DNA from: Nitrospira japonica
GTDB lineage: Bacteria > Nitrospirota > Nitrospiria > Nitrospirales > Nitrospiraceae
Assembly: GCF_900169565.1 (NCBI RefSeq)
Contig: NZ_LT828648.1
Coordinates: 2,764,501 to 2,828,500 of the forward strand
Reading direction: 5' to 3'
DNA: 64,000 nt
Below are positions 41,868-53,151 of the stretch, piece after piece; position 1 is the stretch's first letter; every line of letters begins with the position of its first letter. The position numbers and the translations under genes are program-made. The notes beneath the pieces are model-generated. The model ran no database searches and had not been told where the DNA came from. It worked only from the letters and a program-made list of their open reading frames with translations.

Positions 41868-42662
41868 CTATCGTTGCTGCGTTTGGACCGATCGCAAATC
41901 CCATTCGGCCACGCCGTTGAGTCCCACCTGCTTCAGCAGGCCGGCGCGCAGCCTTCTCAGGGAAGCATCGGTCGGATTGGCGTCGATCAAGGTGCAGAGG
42001 CAGCCCATGGCGTCGTACCAGAAGCCTGCGCGGGCGTTGTCCGTGACCGTTTGCACCGAACAGGTGATCTTCGCGTCGAAGGTAATGAGGCAGTCGCTCA
42101 TTTCGCAACGCTCGATGACACCGCCGCCCACGATATCCTTGGACGGGGAGGAAGGGTCGCGCACGACCGACACGTACCATCGGTATTGAATGTTCGGATC
42201 GAGTGCGAGACCGAGATCCTTGATGGCAATAGAAAAGATGCCCGGTTGTTTCGGAGTTGGAATGGGGGCTTCATAGACCGGTCTCACCGATTGATTGTCG
42301 ATCAGCGTGAATCGCACTTCGTGCGGCGTGGGCTTGGAGAGATACCAGTTGAGGACTGGAGTCTGACTCGACGTGAATCCCACGTGATCGGGTACGAGAG
42401 CCTGGACTTCCGGATCCATGCCTTCCGTGCCGCGCAGTTCTCCGCCGACGCGGGCGCGGGGGGTGAACTTTTTCGGCGGCTGGTAGAGTGGAATCTGGTC
42501 ACGCGAGGTGCCGTTGGCCTGGGTTGTAACCTGTTCAGCAAAACCAGGTGGCATGTCCGAACCGATCACACTGATCGTCGCGAGCATGACACCCATCAGC
42601 ACGGTTCCGGAAGATCTGGCAGCTCGTGTACGGAGAAAAGCATGGGGATGTGTGGCATTCAT
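41868..42662 (-). CDS. DUF928 exported protein (second copy)
   Basis: A protein of 264 aa with a signal peptide. The DUF928 region has 'LYQPPKKFTPRARVGGELRG', 'ALVPDHVGFTSSQTPVLNWY', 'PTPHEVRFTLIDNQSVRPVY' and 'YRWYVSVVRD', ending with 'RRLRAGLLKQVGLNGVAEWD'. It is a close tandem duplicate of the gene at 42742. DUF928 proteins are exported, of unknown function, and typically lie beside CHAT and TpsA/TpsB genes in cyanobacteria. The start at 42662 is preferred; 42695 is also in frame. Confidence 0.88.
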   Translation of the reverse strand: MNATHPHAFLRTRAARSSGTVLMGVMLATISVIGSDMPPGFAEQVTTQANGTSRDQIPLYQPPKKFTPRARVGGELRGTEGMDPEVQALVPDHVGFTSSQTPVLNWYLSKPTPHEVRFTLIDNQSVRPVYEAPIPTPKQPGIFSIAIKDLGLALDPNIQYRWYVSVVRDPSSPSKDIVGGGVIERCEMSDCLITFDAKITCSVQTVTDNARAGFWYDAMGCLCTLIDANPTDASLRRLRAGLLKQVGLNGVAEWDLRSVQTQQR

Positions 42663-42741
42663 GGCGGCAGCCCTCACGTTAGATGTGCGGCTCAAGTTGC
42701 AGAAAACAATCCTCTCGGCATCAACGGTTGACGACGTGACG

Positions 42742-43524
42742 CTATCGGCCGGCTGCCGGGACGGCCCGCAGGTCCCACTCAGCCACGAGATGAAGGCCGA
42801 CTTGGGACAATAGGGATGCGCGGAGCCGCCTCAGCGAGACATTCTCAGGATCCGCATCGATCAAGGCGCAGAGACAGCCCATGGCGTCATACCACATTCC
42901 GGCGCGCGCGTTCTCCGTCACCGACTGAACGGAGCAGGTCATGCGGGCGTCCATGACGATCAAACAATCGCTGAGCTCGCAGCGTTCGATGATGCCGCCG
43001 GTGACGATCTCAGAGAAGGGGGCCGGCTGCACGATGGACACGTACCAACGGTACTGGACGCCGGGCTGCAGGGTCAGATCCAAGTCTCTTGTGCGAATCG
43101 AAAAGATTCCCGCTTCTTTGGGAGCAGGGATCGGTGCCTCGAAGATCGGCTTTACCGATTTGTCGTCGATGAGGGTAAATCGCACTTCATGCGGCGTCGG
43201 CTTGGAGAGATACCAGTTGAGAACGGGCGTCTCCTGGGAGGTGAACCCGACGTGATCCGGCACGAGCGGCTGCACGATCGGCTCGAGACCGTCCGATCCG
43301 CGCACAGTGCCGCCGAGCCTGGCGCGAGGCATGAATTTCTTGGGAGGTATATAGAGGATCCGCGGTTCATTCGATTGACTCGAATCGGCCGACGGCGCCG
43401 AGAACACTGGAACAGCCTGGGCCATCAGGGTGAGGAGGATGAGTCCGATCAGCCCTTGCCTGCCGAGGCCGAATGGACTGGTGACCGTCAGCGAGACTGC
43501 AGAATGACGTGACGCGCAGCGCAT
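42742..43524 (-). CDS. DUF928 exported protein (first copy)
   Basis: A protein of 260 aa with an export signal (about residues 20-43, 'VFSAPS') and the same DUF928 blocks as its neighbour: 'IPPKKFMPRARLGGTVRG', 'PLVPDHVGFTSQETPVLNWY' and 'YRWYVSIVQP'. Two cysteines in 'ERCELSDCLIVMDARMTCSV' are kept in both copies and may form a disulfide. It begins 4 bp from the CHAT gene stop and is surely co-transcribed with it. Confidence 0.9.
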   Translation of the reverse strand: MRCASRHSAVSLTVTSPFGLGRQGLIGLILLTLMAQAVPVFSAPSADSSQSNEPRILYIPPKKFMPRARLGGTVRGSDGLEPIVQPLVPDHVGFTSQETPVLNWYLSKPTPHEVRFTLIDDKSVKPIFEAPIPAPKEAGIFSIRTRDLDLTLQPGVQYRWYVSIVQPAPFSEIVTGGIIERCELSDCLIVMDARMTCSVQSVTENARAGMWYDAMGCLCALIDADPENVSLRRLRASLLSQVGLHLVAEWDLRAVPAAGR

Positions 43525-43528
43525 GATG

Positions 43529-45859
43529 CTAGAGCCAGTTGTTCAGCAGGAGAAAAGGCGACCAGTATGCCGGATGTTGGTAGACGCGGTCACCCAGAAG
43601 TTTGATTTGAGCCCGTTGCATGGCAACGGCCTTCGATACCGACGGATTGCGGAGCTGCCGGTAAAACTCTGAGATCAAGGCCGACGAGGCTTCGTCATTG
43701 ATGAACCAGAGTGTCGCCAACGCGCTGCGCGCACCGGCCTTGATCGCGACGCCGGCCAGACCCAGCGCCGCCCGATCGTCGCCGACGCCGGTCTGACACG
43801 CGCTCAAGGCCAGGAGCTCGAGCGGATCTTCCCTGAACCGGAAAAGCCCGATGAGTTGGTCCAACTTGCTCATGGTCAACTTACCGTCGAAGGTCAGTAA
43901 GAATGAGTCATTTACGTCCGTTGAGAACTTTCCATGCGTCGCGATATGCAGGATGCCATATCGACCTTCACGCAATTCCTGTTCCAGGCGGGGAGCGAGA
44001 AAGTCCTGGTCAAGCAGTTGATCGCCGCCATAGAGGTTATGGATCGAATCGACCTCTTCGGCCACGTAGGGCAAGGCCGGAAATCCTTGTACGCTCTTGG
44101 TGAGGCCGGTTGCAAGGAATCGGACCTTCTCACGGTTCAGCGGTTTCGGGTCCGTCAACGTGATTCCAGGGGTGATCGCGACGGCGAATTTCTGAATCAC
44201 AAATGATTCCCCGTCGTGAAGCGCAGCCATGGGGATCGTCCGGAGGACACCGTCCGGTACCACGACCAGCGTGGTGATGTGTTCCTGCTTCAGTTGCCCT
44301 TCGATCGGCCTGATCAACCAGTCATATAACTGCTTCGCATGGGGGAGGTACTCGCGCGTCGTCCGTTTTTCTACGCGGCGGCGGAAATCACGGACCTCCT
44401 GGGTGACCGTCTCGATTGCGATCGGCACCGCCGTGCGGTAGAAGCCGGACGGCAGTGTGACCAACAGTTCGATCCGTTTGGGAAAGAGGATCGGATAGAT
44501 GACCGCAGTATCCGGCGACAAGCGATCGAAGGTCGTCAGGCGCGACCGGATCGCATCGACGCAGCCGTCTTTGAAGTAGTCCCGCAGTTCGGCCGCCTTG
44601 AAGGCTTCGACGGCATCACGGGCGGCGAGCAAATAGCCTTCGGCAATCTTCTGGTCTTCCGTGCGTGACGCTCGCTGCAAGAGCAAATCGGCGAACTCGA
44701 AGAACAACGGCTTGATCGATTCCTGATTCGACAGGGAAGCCTCGGCCGCCGCCTGGCTCACTTCGAATCGGATCGGTTGCAAGGTGGCCGCTGCCTGCCG
44801 ATAGGCGGCAAGGGATTCGTCGATCTGATCCATCGAAGCCAATAGACGGGCCAACTGCCACTGCCAGCGGTATAGGGATTCCGGTGCATCCACCGACTGC
44901 GCGGCAAAAATGGCTCGCCTGGTCAACAGAAGGGCATCCTCTGTTCTGGCTTCGAGCTCGTACAGGTGTCCCATGTAGCCGAGCGCATAGGAGAGGGTTC
45001 GGGAATCCTTCAATTGTTCGGAGATGCCGATGGCTTCCTGCAGGGCGCCGGCCGACCGGAGGAGCAATGGTTTGCGGATCTCCGGAAGGGCCGGCAAGAG
45101 ACTCTCGTAGACCAATCCGATATTGACGAAGCCCACGGCCTTGTCCCGTGAAACGGGGAGGTCCTTCAGCTGGTCGAGGGCCTCGTCGAGCCATTGTCGG
45201 CTTGCATTCGGGTTGCCGAGCCGCAGGGAAATCCTGGCGGCATTCACCCGGCTGTTCACGGCCAGCATCTGAAGGCCGGCCTCACGGGAGACCGCGACAC
45301 AATCGGTGAAGGCCTCCAGCGCTTCCTTGTCTTCTCGTTTGAGCGCATGGAGCACACCGAGGTCGTTCAGGATGGCGGCGGACACGGCTGCGGATGGTTG
45401 CCGGCGAGCGACTTCCTCGGCCTGGGCAAGGTACTGCGCGGCCGGATCCAGTTGTCTGGCTGTGAGGTAGGCGCGGCCGATTTGATCCAATACCGTGGCA
45501 TGCCAGGCATGGTCGGATCCCTTCTGCGCCAGGGCAAGAGCGAGTTCCAGATATTGAATCGCCTGCGTGCTCTGTCCCAAGGCTTGGGTAGCTTGGGCCG
45601 CGGACACGAGTGCCCGGCTTTCGCCGTCGGTTGAACCTGTCTCGTGATATCGGGAGGCCGCCGCCCGCCAGTTGTTCAAGGCTTCCTCGAACGCGCCGCG
45701 CTGATAGGCTTGCGCGCCTTGCTGCATGAGCGACTCGGCCGTACCCTGCTTCACCGTGTCGGCGAACAGAAGCGGCGGGATCAGAACCAGGCATATGAGT
45801 ACCGCGGACGCGGGCCATCGGAGCGGGCAAAATCTGTGACGGATGGTTTGGACGTTCAC
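43529..45859 (-). CDS. CHAT-domain (caspase-like) protein with TPR repeats, exported
   Basis: A protein of 776 aa if translation starts at the GTG; an ATG at 45976 lies inside a hairpin. A signal or anchor segment ('ASAVLICLVLIPPLLFADT') is followed by TPR-like helices across about residues 40-400 ('AQAYQRGAFEEALNNWRAAA', 'IQYLELALALAQKGSDH'). The C-terminal CHAT domain has the caspase-like dyad His642 ('LHIATHGKFSTD') and Cys688 ('LLALSACQTGVGDD'), then 'WFINDEASSALISEFYRQL' and a final 'HPAYWSPFLLLNNWL'. CHAT proteases cleave partners in several bacterial systems. It sits between tpsB and two DUF928 genes; its substrate is unknown, but TpsA or DUF928 proteins are natural candidates. Confidence 0.92.
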   Translation of the reverse strand: MNVQTIRHRFCPLRWPASAVLICLVLIPPLLFADTVKQGTAESLMQQGAQAYQRGAFEEALNNWRAAASRYHETGSTDGESRALVSAAQATQALGQSTQAIQYLELALALAQKGSDHAWHATVLDQIGRAYLTARQLDPAAQYLAQAEEVARRQPSAAVSAAILNDLGVLHALKREDKEALEAFTDCVAVSREAGLQMLAVNSRVNAARISLRLGNPNASRQWLDEALDQLKDLPVSRDKAVGFVNIGLVYESLLPALPEIRKPLLLRSAGALQEAIGISEQLKDSRTLSYALGYMGHLYELEARTEDALLLTRRAIFAAQSVDAPESLYRWQWQLARLLASMDQIDESLAAYRQAAATLQPIRFEVSQAAAEASLSNQESIKPLFFEFADLLLQRASRTEDQKIAEGYLLAARDAVEAFKAAELRDYFKDGCVDAIRSRLTTFDRLSPDTAVIYPILFPKRIELLVTLPSGFYRTAVPIAIETVTQEVRDFRRRVEKRTTREYLPHAKQLYDWLIRPIEGQLKQEHITTLVVVPDGVLRTIPMAALHDGESFVIQKFAVAITPGITLTDPKPLNREKVRFLATGLTKSVQGFPALPYVAEEVDSIHNLYGGDQLLDQDFLAPRLEQELREGRYGILHIATHGKFSTDVNDSFLLTFDGKLTMSKLDQLIGLFRFREDPLELLALSACQTGVGDDRAALGLAGVAIKAGARSALATLWFINDEASSALISEFYRQLRNPSVSKAVAMQRAQIKLLGDRVYQHPAYWSPFLLLNNWL

Positions 45860-45964
45860 ATCGTTCTCACTATCAAGTGTCGTGCCCAGCGGGGCACTGT
45901 TGGGGGACTGGCGCCCTTCCCATTGGCGGCTGTCCCCCTCATCAATGACTCTTCCCTGTTCGAA

Positions 45965-46002
45965 AGGGAGAGGCACCGCCGCGGACGGCGGAGCCTGTCC
46001 CT
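45965..46002 (-). terminator. Hairpin at the end of tpsB (terminator or attenuator)
   Basis: A stem of 17 positions with two mismatches around a CGGA loop, followed on the - strand by TTTCG. It begins within the tpsB stop codon and precedes the CHAT gene, so it would reduce but perhaps not abolish read-through from tpsB. Confidence 0.55.
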
Positions 46003-47755
46003 AAAATAGATTGATCACCAGACCCATGTGGACCCCATAGTCCTGCAACGTATTGCCCACACGATTCGGCGGATCACGCACGAGTTTGTATCCCCAATAG
46101 ACCTCATAGTTTGCGCGATCGTTGGGAAGGATGCTCCAACGAAGACCGGCGCCGACGCTGGCGAGTGTATTCGGGTTCCCGCCTGCCTCGCTCAAAGACT
46201 TATTCGCGCCCAGACTCCAGCCGTTCCCCACGTCGGCGAATGGCGCGAGCTGTAAGATCGGTTCTCCGCTGATCCGACGCCAGAGAGGAAAACGCGATTC
46301 AAGCGAGGCGATGAAGGCGTTGTCGCGCAGCAGCGTGACCTCGCGATATCCTCGCACGCTGTACCGGCCTCCGACCGACACTTGTTCAAGTGGAAATAGC
46401 GGCGAATTGGTCACCTGCAGATCCATGCGACCGAAAAGTTGCATGCCGAATAAATTTTCGCCGAATTGTTTGATGCCCTGTACCTGACCCAACCAAGAGA
46501 AGAATTCGCCGCTTGGGAGGTTCCCGCCGCCCGGCGTCGTCCCCGAATTGATGGTGGCGCCCAATACATTGAGCCCAACGCTGAATCGGGAACGGCCGGC
46601 CACCACGGTGTCCGTCGAGCGATGAGTCCATTCCTGCGCAAAACGCAGGGCCGACACGGTCGCAGCGCCGTTCTGGAATCCCGGAAAGAGATTGAACGGC
46701 ACATCCGAGAAGATGAAGCTTTGGGTAAACAGATGTTCGCCGATGATCGACAAGACCACTTCATCCGTTATGGTGCGGTACACCGGTTGGCGGAGACTCA
46801 GGCCGATGATTTCCGTGTTGGTCTTGATGTCCAACGGCTTGAATGGCTGCTCGATCAGGGTATAGTCCGTGCGACGGTAGTAGGGCGAAAAGGTCGTATC
46901 ATAGCGATTCAGAGGAATCGCATAAGAGGTATCGATGATCGGAAACGCGCCGGCCGAGCCGCCGAACGTCAGGCTGAATGGATCGCCGTGGCCCGTCACG
47001 TTGTCATAGACCACCGTGCCCAAGCCGCGGAACTCACCGACCAATGGAACTTGATAGTTATTCCCTTCGATGTAGGCATGAAACGGGTTGCGATCCTTGA
47101 CCTTGACATCGAGCTGACTTTCTCCCAGTGCATCGCCAGGCCGCAGTTCTGCGTTAATGCGTTCAATCCGCCTATCCTGCTGAAGGAGTTGTAACTGTTC
47201 CTGCATCCTGTCCATGCTGATGGGAGGACTAGCTCCTTTCTCAATCCGGTTGCGAAGATAGGAATCGGCGAAATATTTGTTGCCGACCACATTGATGCGC
47301 GTCAGCTTGCCTTCGATGATCTGCACGGTGATGATCCCGTCTTTGACATCCTGGTCAGGAATAACCGCACCAGAGGTCTGGTATCCCGAATTGATGTATT
47401 TGGCTGACAGGGTCAGACGCAACCGTTCGAGATCCTCGGTCGTCAGGGTGCGGTTCTCAAATGGCGCCGTCACTTCGTCGAGTTGTGCTTGAGTGAAGAC
47501 CGTGCTACCGACCACTTGGATGTCCTTCACGAACACCCTGATCTGGCCCAGTCGCTGCTCGGCCGGTTCCTCGGGCGGCAGGGGAGGGGGCGGCAAGACG
47601 ACCGACCGCTGGGGTCGAAGATGGGCGGAGCGATCTGCGCCTGCGCGATCGATACGGCCAATAATGATCCCACGAGACTTCCCCATCCGATGTGACGATA
47701 CGAGGACGGAGGTGCTTCCTGCGACACTCCCATCGCTCGTGCCGTCATGATCCAC
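46001..47755 (-). CDS. TpsB (ShlB/FhaC-type) outer-membrane transporter, signal peptide out of frame
   Basis: A protein of about 584 aa. After a proline-rich segment ('LPPPPLPPEEPAEQRLGQIR'), a POTRA_2 domain ('VFVKDIQVVGSTVFTQAQLD', 'GIITVQIIEGKLTRINVVGN') and a 16-stranded ShlB-type barrel follow, ending 'GVHMGLVINLF'. The signature 'GGRYSVRGYREVTLLRDNAF' is present. The first 48 residues in this frame are not a signal peptide. In the frame opening at 47748, however, a signal peptide reads '...SLVGSLLAVSIAQAQIAPPI' and 'FDPSGRSS', exactly what should precede the proline segment. A one-base shift near the C-rich stretch (about 47580-47600) separates them. It would export the TpsA protein at 49203. 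Confidence 0.85.
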   Translation of the reverse strand: MDHDGTSDGSVAGSTSVLVSSHRMGKSRGIIIGRIDRAGADRSAHLRPQRSVVLPPPPLPPEEPAEQRLGQIRVFVKDIQVVGSTVFTQAQLDEVTAPFENRTLTTEDLERLRLTLSAKYINSGYQTSGAVIPDQDVKDGIITVQIIEGKLTRINVVGNKYFADSYLRNRIEKGASPPISMDRMQEQLQLLQQDRRIERINAELRPGDALGESQLDVKVKDRNPFHAYIEGNNYQVPLVGEFRGLGTVVYDNVTGHGDPFSLTFGGSAGAFPIIDTSYAIPLNRYDTTFSPYYRRTDYTLIEQPFKPLDIKTNTEIIGLSLRQPVYRTITDEVVLSIIGEHLFTQSFIFSDVPFNLFPGFQNGAATVSALRFAQEWTHRSTDTVVAGRSRFSVGLNVLGATINSGTTPGGGNLPSGEFFSWLGQVQGIKQFGENLFGMQLFGRMDLQVTNSPLFPLEQVSVGGRYSVRGYREVTLLRDNAFIASLESRFPLWRRISGEPILQLAPFADVGNGWSLGANKSLSEAGGNPNTLASVGAGLRWSILPNDRANYEVYWGYKLVRDPPNRVGNTLQDYGVHMGLVINLF

Positions 47756-48425: not shown

Positions 48426-48746
48426 TCATGCGAGCGGAGTTGGCTCCGTTATGAGAGTCACAGGATCGCCATGTGGTCCCTCGACTTCGCAAAGAATTTG
48501 ATAAAAGCAATCCTGTGGCTTGGCAGGAAGCTGATCGTCATACACGCTTGCTATGATTTTCTTCTGGCCCTTGCTAACTGAACTACCCTTCAGTGCTATA
48601 GATGCTTCCCACTTGTGGTTGCCTGCTGGATCAATAGTTCCAAAGCGCACCCATGCCTGCTTAACCTGATCTGCTTGTGCATCGAGACTAATGTTAAATC
48701 CCTCCTGAGTTTGGCCAGTGATCCTGTTATGCTCTCCGCTGGTCAT
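48426..48746 (-). CDS. Small soluble protein, unknown
   Basis: A protein of 106 aa without a signal peptide. It reads as a beta-rich domain ('ISLDAQADQVKQAWVRFGTI', 'EASIALKGSSVSKGQKKIIA', 'GDPVTLITEPTPLA'). No family recognised. GGGAGGTT is well placed before the ATG, and base composition is lower in GC than in the neighbouring core genes. It is the last gene before the tpsB promoter region and lies downstream of tpsA, so it may be an accessory of that system. Confidence 0.65.
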   Translation of the reverse strand: MTSGEHNRITGQTQEGFNISLDAQADQVKQAWVRFGTIDPAGNHKWEASIALKGSSVSKGQKKIIASVYDDQLPAKPQDCFYQILCEVEGPHGDPVTLITEPTPLA

Positions 48747-48824: not shown

Positions 48825-49136
48825 TCACCGTTGAGACCGAAATTTATTGCTATTAGACACAAACGTCCCGCCAGTCGGTGGTTGATACACGATTTGGGTG
48901 TAGTAAAAACCGTTGTTAGCCGGGAGGTTACTTAGCAAGCATGTCCCGATTGGTGTATTGCTCCAGTTCGTTTGTGTAACCAGGCTCCCTCCATTATTTT
49001 GTGCCGTTGTGACTGTGATCTTCCACTGCGCAACCAAGGTTAGAGGATGGTTTGCATGTGCATTAGTGGGGACAAAATAATAGGAGTTACCGTAGGTAGC
49101 CCCATTATTGGGTGGGTCCAAGACAATTGGTGGCAT
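48825..49136 (-). CDS. Small beta-rich protein, unknown
   Basis: A protein of 103 aa with no signal peptide, rich in Asn/Thr/Tyr ('LDPPNNGATYGNSYYFVPTN', 'LTLVAQWKITVTTAQNNGG', 'GFYYTQIVYQPPTGG'). It resembles a fibronectin- or Ig-like strand repeat but is too short to name. AGGAAGGAG precedes the ATG. It lies 66 bp downstream of tpsA on the same strand and upstream of another small unknown protein. Confidence 0.65.
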   Translation of the reverse strand: MPPIVLDPPNNGATYGNSYYFVPTNAHANHPLTLVAQWKITVTTAQNNGGSLVTQTNWSNTPIGTCLLSNLPANNGFYYTQIVYQPPTGGTFVSNSNKFRSQR

Positions 49137-49202: not shown

Positions 49203-52200
49203 TCAGCAACCTACGAACCAGTCTTCGTCAAAAGTCTGCATTCCCAGAAGCCAGGGACTGGGAAGCCGGCGCAGTGATAGGAAAGACGAGTCATCAGATC
49301 TGGAAGAAAGTCCTGTTTCACCGGCTTCTATGACCGCGCCATTGGCAACCGGCATAGCGACCAGCGGACTCGTCAACCAGCCACCCGGCTCGGTCGGTAG
49401 CGTGTCCCGTCCCGCCACGATGAAACTGCTGACCTCGCCCCGAGCGATTGCGGCACACCGCTGACTCAGGAGGGCGGTGACTTGAATCGGCGCTTTGCCT
49501 AGCGGCTGAATCTTCCCACCAGCCGGAGCGATGGGCTGCTGAATCGTTACTGTACCATCAAGTGCTGGGTTCCCCGATCTTGCGGTAACCTGGCTATTGG
49601 CGTCTGGTAAGAACAGACCACCATTTGTAATCGAGATAAGTACGTTCCCTCCAGGGCCTTGGTCAGCATTCGCTCTAATTTGACTGTTCTGCAGAATGAC
49701 AAACTGTGGATCGATACTTATGCTCCCTCCTCCGCCTGTCCCATCGAGGACCGAGGCACTGATCGTGCTGTTCGAGAGATCTACTCTGCCGCTTGGATTT
49801 GTCGTGATCTTTATTGTGCCTCCGCTAGATTTCGTCGCCTCTGTTGTAAGGAGGCCGTTCGTCATTACGAGTTGACTGCCCGCGTTCAAGTTGATATTGC
49901 CAGCTGCTCCTGAGCCGGTGCTGCTACTCGAAATGTGACCGTTATTTTGAACTGCAACGGATTGAGCTGAGATCGATATATCTCCGCCAGCTCCGCTTCC
50001 TTGGGTCAAAGTGAAGATGCCGCTACCTGCTCCATCGATGAGGACCGATTGTGCCGGACTGGCAAGACCTTGAACTGCAACTATTCCAGCCGCCCCAGTT
50101 GGCGGAAAGTCTGGAAACTCTAGCAGGCTGCCGCTCGTGATGTGGCCTCCGGACAGCAATTGGAAATTGTTTGCATTGACTGTGATGGTGCCAGCTTTCC
50201 CCTCGAGACCCGTTGAGGTTGAAATGCTGCCGCCATTATCGATCACTACGGCGGGAGAAGTGATAACAATGTTTCCTGCATCTCCAAATGAAAACTCTCT
50301 ACTCGCGCTGGTGAGTTGTGTGCCGGAACCGGAGATCGTTAGCGAATCGGTCGCGTTCACAGTGATGTTGCCGGCTGCTCCGGTGCTGCCACGAGACGCG
50401 CTGTTAAGCAGACTGTCGCCACTAAGACTCAAGCGAGCCGCATCGACTAGAATGTTTCCGGCGTTCCCCTGAATAGTGACACCATCCCCGCTTGTCTCAG
50501 TCACGAGTTGACTGTTCTGAGCGAGTGTAACAACGCTCGCGTTGCTCCCTGGACCGGCCAGTCCTCGAATAATGATATTCCCCCCGTGACCTTCGGCCTG
50601 CGTACGAGCGCTGAGAACACTTTCGGTGAGGTCTACGTGACTAGCCCGCAGTTCAATGCTGCCTGCGTGACCGGAACCAGCGGTGTTAGTGCCGATGTTG
50701 GAACCTCCCTGCATTTCGATGAGTGGAGCTATCAGGCTCACCGTCCCTCCTGCTCCATCGACATCGGTGTTACTCGTGATCGATCCGTTATTAAATAGAG
50801 CGATTTGTGAGTCAGCCCTCACCATAATATTCCCGGCGTTGCCAGGACCGGTGGAGGAAGCGTTTATGGTTCCACCCGAGACGAGGTTTACCGTATTCGC
50901 ATTCACTGTGACTGTTCCGCCGGTGGCGGATGGTGTAGTGCCTGATGTCGTTGCCGAGAGTAATCCACCATTCTGAAGTGTGAGCGAGTTTGTAAAGACA
51001 GCTATGTGCCCACCCGCACCCGTGCCTTCAGTGTTGGTGAGAATGCCGCTTCCTTGACCATCAATTAGGATCGACCCAGCTGGGCTTGCCAATCCTCCAA
51101 TGGTTATGGCTCCACCAGATCCGGACGGAGTTTCGAGCGGTGCGTCAGGTGGAGGAAATGGATTGAACCTAGTACTGCTCCTAATCTGAGCTCCGTTCAT
51201 GATCTGGAGATTGTTCGTCGAAATGTTCAGAGTGCCGCCGTCTCCATTTCGAAATGTTTCGGTCGAAACCGTACTTCCGTCTGTGAGTAAAATATCCTGA
51301 GCGTTGATCGTTAGGTCAGCTGATCGTGCGTTTCGACGCGTGGTCGTGAGTAGAGTTGATGGAAATATGTCGGCACCGCTCATCTTGAGTGTGCCTGTCA
51401 GGTTGACAGTCAAGTTTCCAGGTTGAAACGGAGTGAAGTTGTCAATTTGAATGCCGGAGTTCTCGATGGTGAGATTTCGAGCGTTTAGTTGAAGCCCGCC
51501 CGTCCCTGGGTGAAGTCCCGCTCCAAGGCTACTAAATAGAGTGGCTGGTCCTAAATCAGGACTCCCTGTGAGTACGATATTTCCGTTCCTCGCATTGACC
51601 ACTATATTGCCCGCGTCCCCGCTATCGGGAGCTCCACTCAACGACTGGCTTGACGCCGATATGCTAGGACCATTCGTGAGAAGGACGTCGCCTTGAGTGC
51701 TCGTCAATACGATGCTGCCTGCATTCCCAAACGGGGGATTGGAGGTTGTCGTTCCAGCAAAAACCAACGACCCGCTGGATACCTCAAGGTTGCCTGTACT
51801 TGTTAGAAGGATACTGCCTGAATTGCCTATTCCCCCGGTTTCCGCGTCAATAAAACCAAGGTTTGTCACGATGATAGAGTTTGCGTTCACACGGATATCG
51901 CCGCTGTTTCCCCCAGCACTTTCTGGCAATACATTTGACTGAAGGATAGTGGGAACAATATTTCCTGTCTCAAGATCTAATATGCCACCGACTTCCACAT
52001 GATCGGCCATTATAGTAATCCCGCCATATGTGACGCCCGCGCTAGCAGTCCCGGTGACTGAGGTATCAATCATGGCAGCGTTTTTTATGACCACATTCTG
52101 ACTCATAGCGATGTCGACACCGTGTCCGATGGATTCAGTGCCATTTATGGTCGGACCAGGCCCCGTGACATTGGCGAGAATTACGGAATTGTCCAGGACA

Positions 52201-53108
52201 AATTGCCCTCCTCGAATGAGCACCGTACCTCCACCGTAGCCACTCACGTCGAGTGTAGATTGTTCAGACACCTGAATCGCACCGAGAGTAATGAAAGACT
52301 GACCATTGATGTTGGGGGCCTGGGACAATGTCTTCAATAGTAACTCTCCAGGTGAGGTTACACTGGCAAGATTAATCTGCCCTCCGTGCGCGGAGAGGTG
52401 AGCCGGTTGCGTTGTCGTTCCATCTTCCAGGGAACCGGCCTGGATCGTAATGTTTCCTCCGGCCAGAGAGATGCTTTGACCAGGAGCAACAGCTATTTGG
52501 CTTCCCTGAACTGTAATAGCCCCTGGAGTTGAGCCCAGAAATCCAAATGCCGCGACTGGGGCCGCACTCAGAAGCGCATCTGCTGCGGCATTTGGGGACG
52601 AATTGAATAATCTTCCATCGTTGAGACGAAGATAGTCCGCGGATGTGAAAGCTACCATTCCGCCGACGTTCACCGTGGCATTTGGTCCAAACAGGAAACC
52701 TGCTGGGTTGATCAAGAATAGATTGGCATTGCCAAATCCGCCTGATCCGTTTGTCTGAATCGTTCCGAAGATGTTCGAAATGTTTCCGCCGGTCACGCGT
52801 CCTAGAATATTGGTCGTGGGGAGGGCTGACTCGTTGAGGAAGTTGGCGATGTTGTTGTTCGGCACGCTGAAGTTGCCGAAACTGTGAAATAGATTCGTCC
52901 CTCCGCCTGGACGAGTGCCACCGGTGATGTTGTAAGCATTTCCATTCGGTGTGATGACTGTGTTCAAACCGGAAGAAGTGATAGGGGCTTGGCCATAAGA
53001 ATTAGATGGGGCGAAATTCAGACAGAGAACACAAACTCCCAGAGCACATGCGAAGCGTGCTTCCGACCAGTTATGGATCCCTTGCAGGAATAGATGGAGG
53101 TTTCTCAT
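49203..53108 (-). CDS. TpsA: haemagglutinin-like two-partner-secretion exoprotein
   Basis: A protein of 1301 aa with an extended signal region (about residues 1-41). The TPS domain includes 'GNFSVPNNNIANFLNESALP', 'ILGRVTGGNISNIFGTIQ' and the export motif 'NPAGFLFG' (residues 134-141). Beyond it are long beta-helix repeats of the form 'GNAGNI-V-A', 'GSGAAGNINLNAGSQLVM' and 'GGGTVLIRGGQFVLDNS', ending in 'QVTALLSQRCAAIARGEVSS' and 'GRDTLPTEPGGWLTSP', the tail seen in cyanobacterial haemagglutinin-type proteins. Its TpsB partner is at 46001. It is expected to be a surface filament or adhesin. The ATG at 53108 begins the signal; 53126 is also possible. Confidence 0.92.
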   Translation of the reverse strand: MRNLHLFLQGIHNWSEARFACALGVCVLCLNFAPSNSYGQAPITSSGLNTVITPNGNAYNITGGTRPGGGTNLFHSFGNFSVPNNNIANFLNESALPTTNILGRVTGGNISNIFGTIQTNGSGGFGNANLFLINPAGFLFGPNATVNVGGMVAFTSADYLRLNDGRLFNSSPNAAADALLSAAPVAAFGFLGSTPGAITVQGSQIAVAPGQSISLAGGNITIQAGSLEDGTTTQPAHLSAHGGQINLASVTSPGELLLKTLSQAPNINGQSFITLGAIQVSEQSTLDVSGYGGGTVLIRGGQFVLDNSVILANVTGPGPTINGTESIGHGVDIAMSQNVVIKNAAMIDTSVTGTASAGVTYGGITIMADHVEVGGILDLETGNIVPTILQSNVLPESAGGNSGDIRVNANSIIVTNLGFIDAETGGIGNSGSILLTSTGNLEVSSGSLVFAGTTTSNPPFGNAGSIVLTSTQGDVLLTNGPSISASSQSLSGAPDSGDAGNIVVNARNGNIVLTGSPDLGPATLFSSLGAGLHPGTGGLQLNARNLTIENSGIQIDNFTPFQPGNLTVNLTGTLKMSGADIFPSTLLTTTRRNARSADLTINAQDILLTDGSTVSTETFRNGDGGTLNISTNNLQIMNGAQIRSSTRFNPFPPPDAPLETPSGSGGAITIGGLASPAGSILIDGQGSGILTNTEGTGAGGHIAVFTNSLTLQNGGLLSATTSGTTPSATGGTVTVNANTVNLVSGGTINASSTGPGNAGNIMVRADSQIALFNNGSITSNTDVDGAGGTVSLIAPLIEMQGGSNIGTNTAGSGHAGSIELRASHVDLTESVLSARTQAEGHGGNIIIRGLAGPGSNASVVTLAQNSQLVTETSGDGVTIQGNAGNILVDAARLSLSGDSLLNSASRGSTGAAGNITVNATDSLTISGSGTQLTSASREFSFGDAGNIVITSPAVVIDNGGSISTSTGLEGKAGTITVNANNFQLLSGGHITSGSLLEFPDFPPTGAAGIVAVQGLASPAQSVLIDGAGSGIFTLTQGSGAGGDISISAQSVAVQNNGHISSSSTGSGAAGNINLNAGSQLVMTNGLLTTEATKSSGGTIKITTNPSGRVDLSNSTISASVLDGTGGGGSISIDPQFVILQNSQIRANADQGPGGNVLISITNGGLFLPDANSQVTARSGNPALDGTVTIQQPIAPAGGKIQPLGKAPIQVTALLSQRCAAIARGEVSSFIVAGRDTLPTEPGGWLTSPLVAMPVANGAVIEAGETGLSSRSDDSSFLSLRRLPSPWLLGMQTFDEDWFVGC

Positions 53109-53151
53109 GACACTACTCTTCACCATCAGGTCAGAGCCAAGGTTGAAGCGT

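Follow-up and report, generated by a model that had tools for sequence, protein, structure and literature searches.

A net 67-nt loss that probably disrupts the two-partner transporter gene tpsB in Nitrospira japonica NJ1

Two-partner transporters of the FhaC/ShlB/HecB type combine a POTRA_2 domain (PF08479) with a ShlB-type β-barrel (PF03865), which a signal peptide and a proline-rich linker precede in the relatives considered here. As in outer-membrane protein export generally, a barrel that is cut off from its signal peptide should not be exported. Phase-variable two-partner systems, such as the HMW adhesins of Haemophilus influenzae, use tandem-repeat tracts. For two-partner secretion in Nitrospira, we found nothing specific in the literature.

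We analyzed a 64-kb stretch of the genome of the nitrite-oxidizing bacterium N. japonica NJ1 (the window; 64,000 nt), which contains a tpsB gene at 46001-47755 on the minus strand. Like FhaC, ShlB and HecB, its predicted product has POTRA and barrel domains and is encoded beside a TpsA with a TPS domain; the difference is that in NJ1 a loss of 67 nt has put the signal peptide in another frame. The features of the locus are as follows.

46001-47755, minus strand: barrel-frame ORF of tpsB, GTG start, 584 aa; opens MDHDGTSDGSVAGSTSVLVSSHRMGKSRG..., without a signal peptide
47527-47748, minus strand: signal-peptide ORF, ATG start, 73 aa, reading MTARAMGVSQEAPPSSYRHIGWGSLVGSLLAVSIAQAQIAPPIFDPSGRSS; homologous to the N-terminal part of tpsB in relative G005, where the gene is intact
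46001-47597, minus strand: remaining tpsB in the second frame (VLPPPPLPPEEP onward), POTRA_2 (PF08479) and ShlB barrel (PF03865), zero internal stops
47599-47600, minus strand: deletion junction (GGTC/GTC), 67 nt (22 codons + 1) missing, position of the breakpoint uncertain by a few bases
47581-47593, minus strand: C-rich run CCGCCCCCTCCCC, aligned to G005 without gaps, encoding the conserved PPPPL
49203-53126, minus strand: tpsA, the presumed substrate, 1307 aa, open frame; TPS secretion domain PF05860, 139.6 bits
43529-45976, minus strand: TPR-CHAT domain protein, encoded immediately after tpsB; in G005 syntenic and 89% identical
42742-43524, minus strand: DUF928 protein, a conserved neighbor by domain match and G005 gene order
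41868-42695, minus strand: second DUF928 protein, a conserved neighbor by domain match and G005 gene order

The signal peptide and the POTRA/β-barrel domain of NJ1 tpsB sit in two different frames that overlap by more than 200 nt. In the signal-peptide ORF, the signal peptide is followed by APPIFDPSGRSS, with the lead-in APPIFDPSGRS in frame; from ~47600 onward, the last ~22 codons are read out of frame, up to a TGA (47529-47527). The best 14-residue Kyte-Doolittle mean is 1.70 in this frame, close to that of the intact relative (1.74), but only 0.68 in the barrel frame, and a second signal peptide encoded there was therefore rejected. The gene of the relative opens with a sequence homologous to the signal-peptide frame (IGWGSL(V/M)GSLL..AQIAPPIFDPSGRS), so the frame offset is not the product of a chance ORF. 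Thus both translations, the hydropathy profiles and the homology bear out the claim of an earlier note on this DNA that the signal peptide lies one frame away from mature TpsB. Both downstream domains score well over their Pfam cut-offs (PF08479, 75.1 bits vs. 24; PF03865, 79.7 bits vs. 22.7), but the N-terminal signal peptide, which is in frame in relatives, is out of frame in NJ1. NJ1 tpsB is a disrupted member of the FhaC/ShlB family by descent and, judged by its sequence, apparently not a working one.

The source of the offset becomes visible in comparison with G005, the closest relative of NJ1 in our set, whose TpsB protein is 89% identical. Both genomes share the order tpsA, two small ORFs, tpsB, TPR-CHAT, two DUF928 genes and a sensor kinase, and the syntenic G005 tpsB is a single 599-aa frame (MTGRAAGQTGQPGRSLQPVIGWGSLMGSLLVASISHAQIAPPIFDPSGRSGEPPAPLKKEFERPEPPRPPSPVLPPPPLPPEEPAEQ...). 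The DNA alignment shows a single 67-nt gap in NJ1 at ~47600/47599, flanked by GGTC and GTCTTGCCG, and the distance from anchor to anchor across this junction is 50 nt in NJ1 vs. 117 nt in G005. The absent 67 nt code in G005 for the linker GEPPAPLKKEFERPEPPRPPSP. Since 67 = 3 × 22 + 1 is not a multiple of three, this loss alone explains the frame offset. The earlier note had put the meeting point of the frames at 47580-47600, which was nearly right; the alignment places the change just upstream of the C-rich run. Its proposal that one base would join the frames holds modulo 3; NJ1 is nevertheless set apart from its relatives by a loss of 67 bases and not of a single C. The lost segment is not repetitive. 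Exchange between perfect direct repeats was considered, as G005 carries two copies of GTCCGG 65 nt apart, but this does not fit the 67 nt missing in NJ1, and such an exchange would have left a different junction; a repeat-mediated deletion is not claimed.

We next asked of the wider family whether the linker is ancestral. Among 175 Nitrospiraceae genomes searched for TpsB, 100 gave a strong match, and the N-terminus was checked in the top 30 matches for which loci were obtained. These included 27 genes other than that of NJ1 with a complete N-terminus (G005 among them), and in 27/27 one frame runs through the signal peptide, a linker resembling DPxGRSGxPPxPLKxEF and the POTRA domain, with a shortened variant of the motif in one ortholog (L036). 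This distribution indicates that the linker is ancestral and was lost in NJ1. Relative to all relatives examined, NJ1 thus carries a deletion that shifts the frame, upstream of coding sequence that is conserved.

The C-rich run next to the junction had suggested a different cause. The earlier note attributed the offset to a change in the length of this run, and phase variation by that or another tract would toggle TpsB and hence the surface display of TpsA, as it would in the HMW system of H. influenzae. The one-base difference modulo 3 and the adjoining C-rich stretch fit this idea. However, the run (C5-T-C4 in NJ1) has the same length in intact G005, aligns to it without a gap and encodes LPPPPLPPEEP in both, which rules out an indel there as the cause. 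No long unstable homopolymer tract was found at the frame break, where the longest run is 5; C/G runs of this length are commonplace in the 64-kb window (43 of length 5, 15 of length 6). The NJ1 lesion is a non-repeat deletion with no apparent tandem-repeat tract, in contrast to HMW, and the 67-nt loss already accounts for the frame change, with no obvious route of reversion, which argues against phase variation. We therefore give phase variation almost no credence. Programmed -1 ribosomal frameshifting, which would join both frames in NJ1, also appears highly improbable. The overlap of more than 200 nt would leave room for it, and partial re-pairing could occur at C_CCC_CTC, but a search of the overlap for -1 slippery heptamers (X_XXY_YYZ) found zero that let both tRNAs re-pair. 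Moreover, no relative uses frameshifting here, each having one continuous frame, and the overlap itself was produced by the deletion. Neither of these two mechanisms raised by the earlier note is thus borne out, and NJ1 tpsB most likely represents an ordinary gene disruption, not a reversible switch.

How old is the disruption? Against G005, the mature part of TpsB (526 codons) has dN = 0.061 and dS = 1.11 (dN/dS about 0.055) and contains no stop; the barrel region is under strong purifying selection. The neighboring CHAT gene is conserved as strongly as TpsB (dN = 0.057, dS = 1.02). The TpsB branch is longer in NJ1 than in G005 (0.084 vs. 0.044, ratio 1.9), and polarized amino-acid changes number 13 vs. 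4, which at first suggested relaxed selection on NJ1 TpsB. This candidate was rejected, as the CHAT branches are similarly asymmetric (0.070 vs. 0.042, ratio 1.7). Purifying selection on the barrel, the lack of later damage and the lack of relaxation specific to TpsB together suggest that the deletion is recent, and probably young relative to the species split. In these respects NJ1 tpsB resembles ordinary recent pseudogenes made by short deletions, with a net loss indivisible by three and downstream sequence that is still conserved; we saw no difference from them, and the disabling lesion stands out against intact orthologs.

An undamaged downstream frame is, however, also expected from an assembly fault or a culture variant. 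The NJ1 genome was assembled with SPAdes from Illumina MiSeq 2 × 250 paired-end and mate-pair reads and manually curated to one scaffold (PMC5767232). Were the assembly or consensus wrong, the organism would have the 67 nt (or one further base) and an intact gene; the pristine, selected state of the remaining tpsB and the apparently intact other genes of the operon are what such an error would leave. We nevertheless consider an error unlikely, because the 67-nt segment is non-repetitive and far below the 250-base read length, and such stretches are rarely lost in Illumina assemblies. Disruptions of orthologs also exist in other genomes, though mostly draft ones. Alternatively, and as a special case of a real deletion, the loss may be confined to the sequenced culture, where prolonged enrichment and isolation would have fixed it, the gene being intact in wild N. 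japonica. The youth of the deletion and the isolation of the strain by cultivation from activated sludge (PMC5767232) are consistent with this, but nothing separates it from a wild allele, and we hold it to be possible yet distinctly the lesser chance.

Taken together, the comparisons make it highly likely that NJ1 carries a recently disrupted tpsB of the FhaC/ShlB type, probably a null allele, through a net loss of 67 nt that we attribute to a single mutational event. The loss took away the conserved proline-rich linker that joins the signal peptide to the POTRA domain, and it shifted the frame of all that follows. Translation that begins at the signal peptide would terminate after 73 aa, and the POTRA-barrel frame has no signal peptide. 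With the signal peptide severed from the barrel, TpsB should not be exported: the outer membrane would lack the transporter, and the neighboring intact TpsA would not be displayed unless another transporter substitutes. The earlier note had recognized both halves of the gene correctly, and its off state for TpsB is a likely consequence, although of the 67-nt loss and not of the C-rich run it proposed. The stop of the signal-peptide ORF overlaps a GTG in the barrel frame (47530-47527, GTGA), so that re-initiation is conceivable, although it would give a product without a signal peptide, and low-level spontaneous frameshifting could yield some transporter. These results correct a tempting reading as phase variation and show that the 584-aa TpsB frame of NJ1 probably does not encode an exported protein, so that NJ1 is unfit as evidence of this secretion system working there. 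The most that can be drawn from the case is that the system is occasionally lost among Nitrospira.

NJ1 has a second two-partner locus (L079, L015; G000 C1, about 1,246,428-1,250,849), with a TpsA open frame of 4163 aa and its own TpsB, a 544-aa open frame that is 28% identical to the disrupted one. In the window, the TPR-CHAT gene and the two DUF928 genes (41868-45976) form a cassette that is conserved after tpsB in Nitrospira. Two small proteins are encoded between tpsA and tpsB (48426-48746 and 48825-49136, minus strand), with no Pfam match; G005 has ORFs of similar size in the equivalent place (L061; 1945-2286 and 2355-2681).

Five other tpsB orthologs or homologs have changes that break the ORF, through different lesions, in draft genomes where errors are common. 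In Nitrospira MAG LS_FP_2_bin.31 (L065 in G104; same gene as L001), an in-frame TGA falls within the same linker (DPTG*SGQPPGPLKEEF), and signal peptide and barrel are otherwise intact. In G055 (L064), a one-base frameshift at a five-G run after PDQDVIDG (about 985-1060) is either a real indel or a draft error. In Nitrospira sp. RSF5 (L062 in G067; same gene as L010), a truncated tpsA continues directly into tpsB in a different frame; deletion or misassembly has taken away the 3' part of tpsA together with the 5' part of tpsB. One might suppose that independent lesions (in NJ1, G104, G055, G057 and G067) have turned off the TpsB of this Nitrospiraceae cassette time and again, as if display of TpsA were recurrently counter-selected, for example by phage or predators, but we think this improbable. 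The remaining two homologs are changed late in the gene, by a TGA in the barrel (RENTFV*DNAF; L063 in G057) and by a frameshift (L076 in G150).
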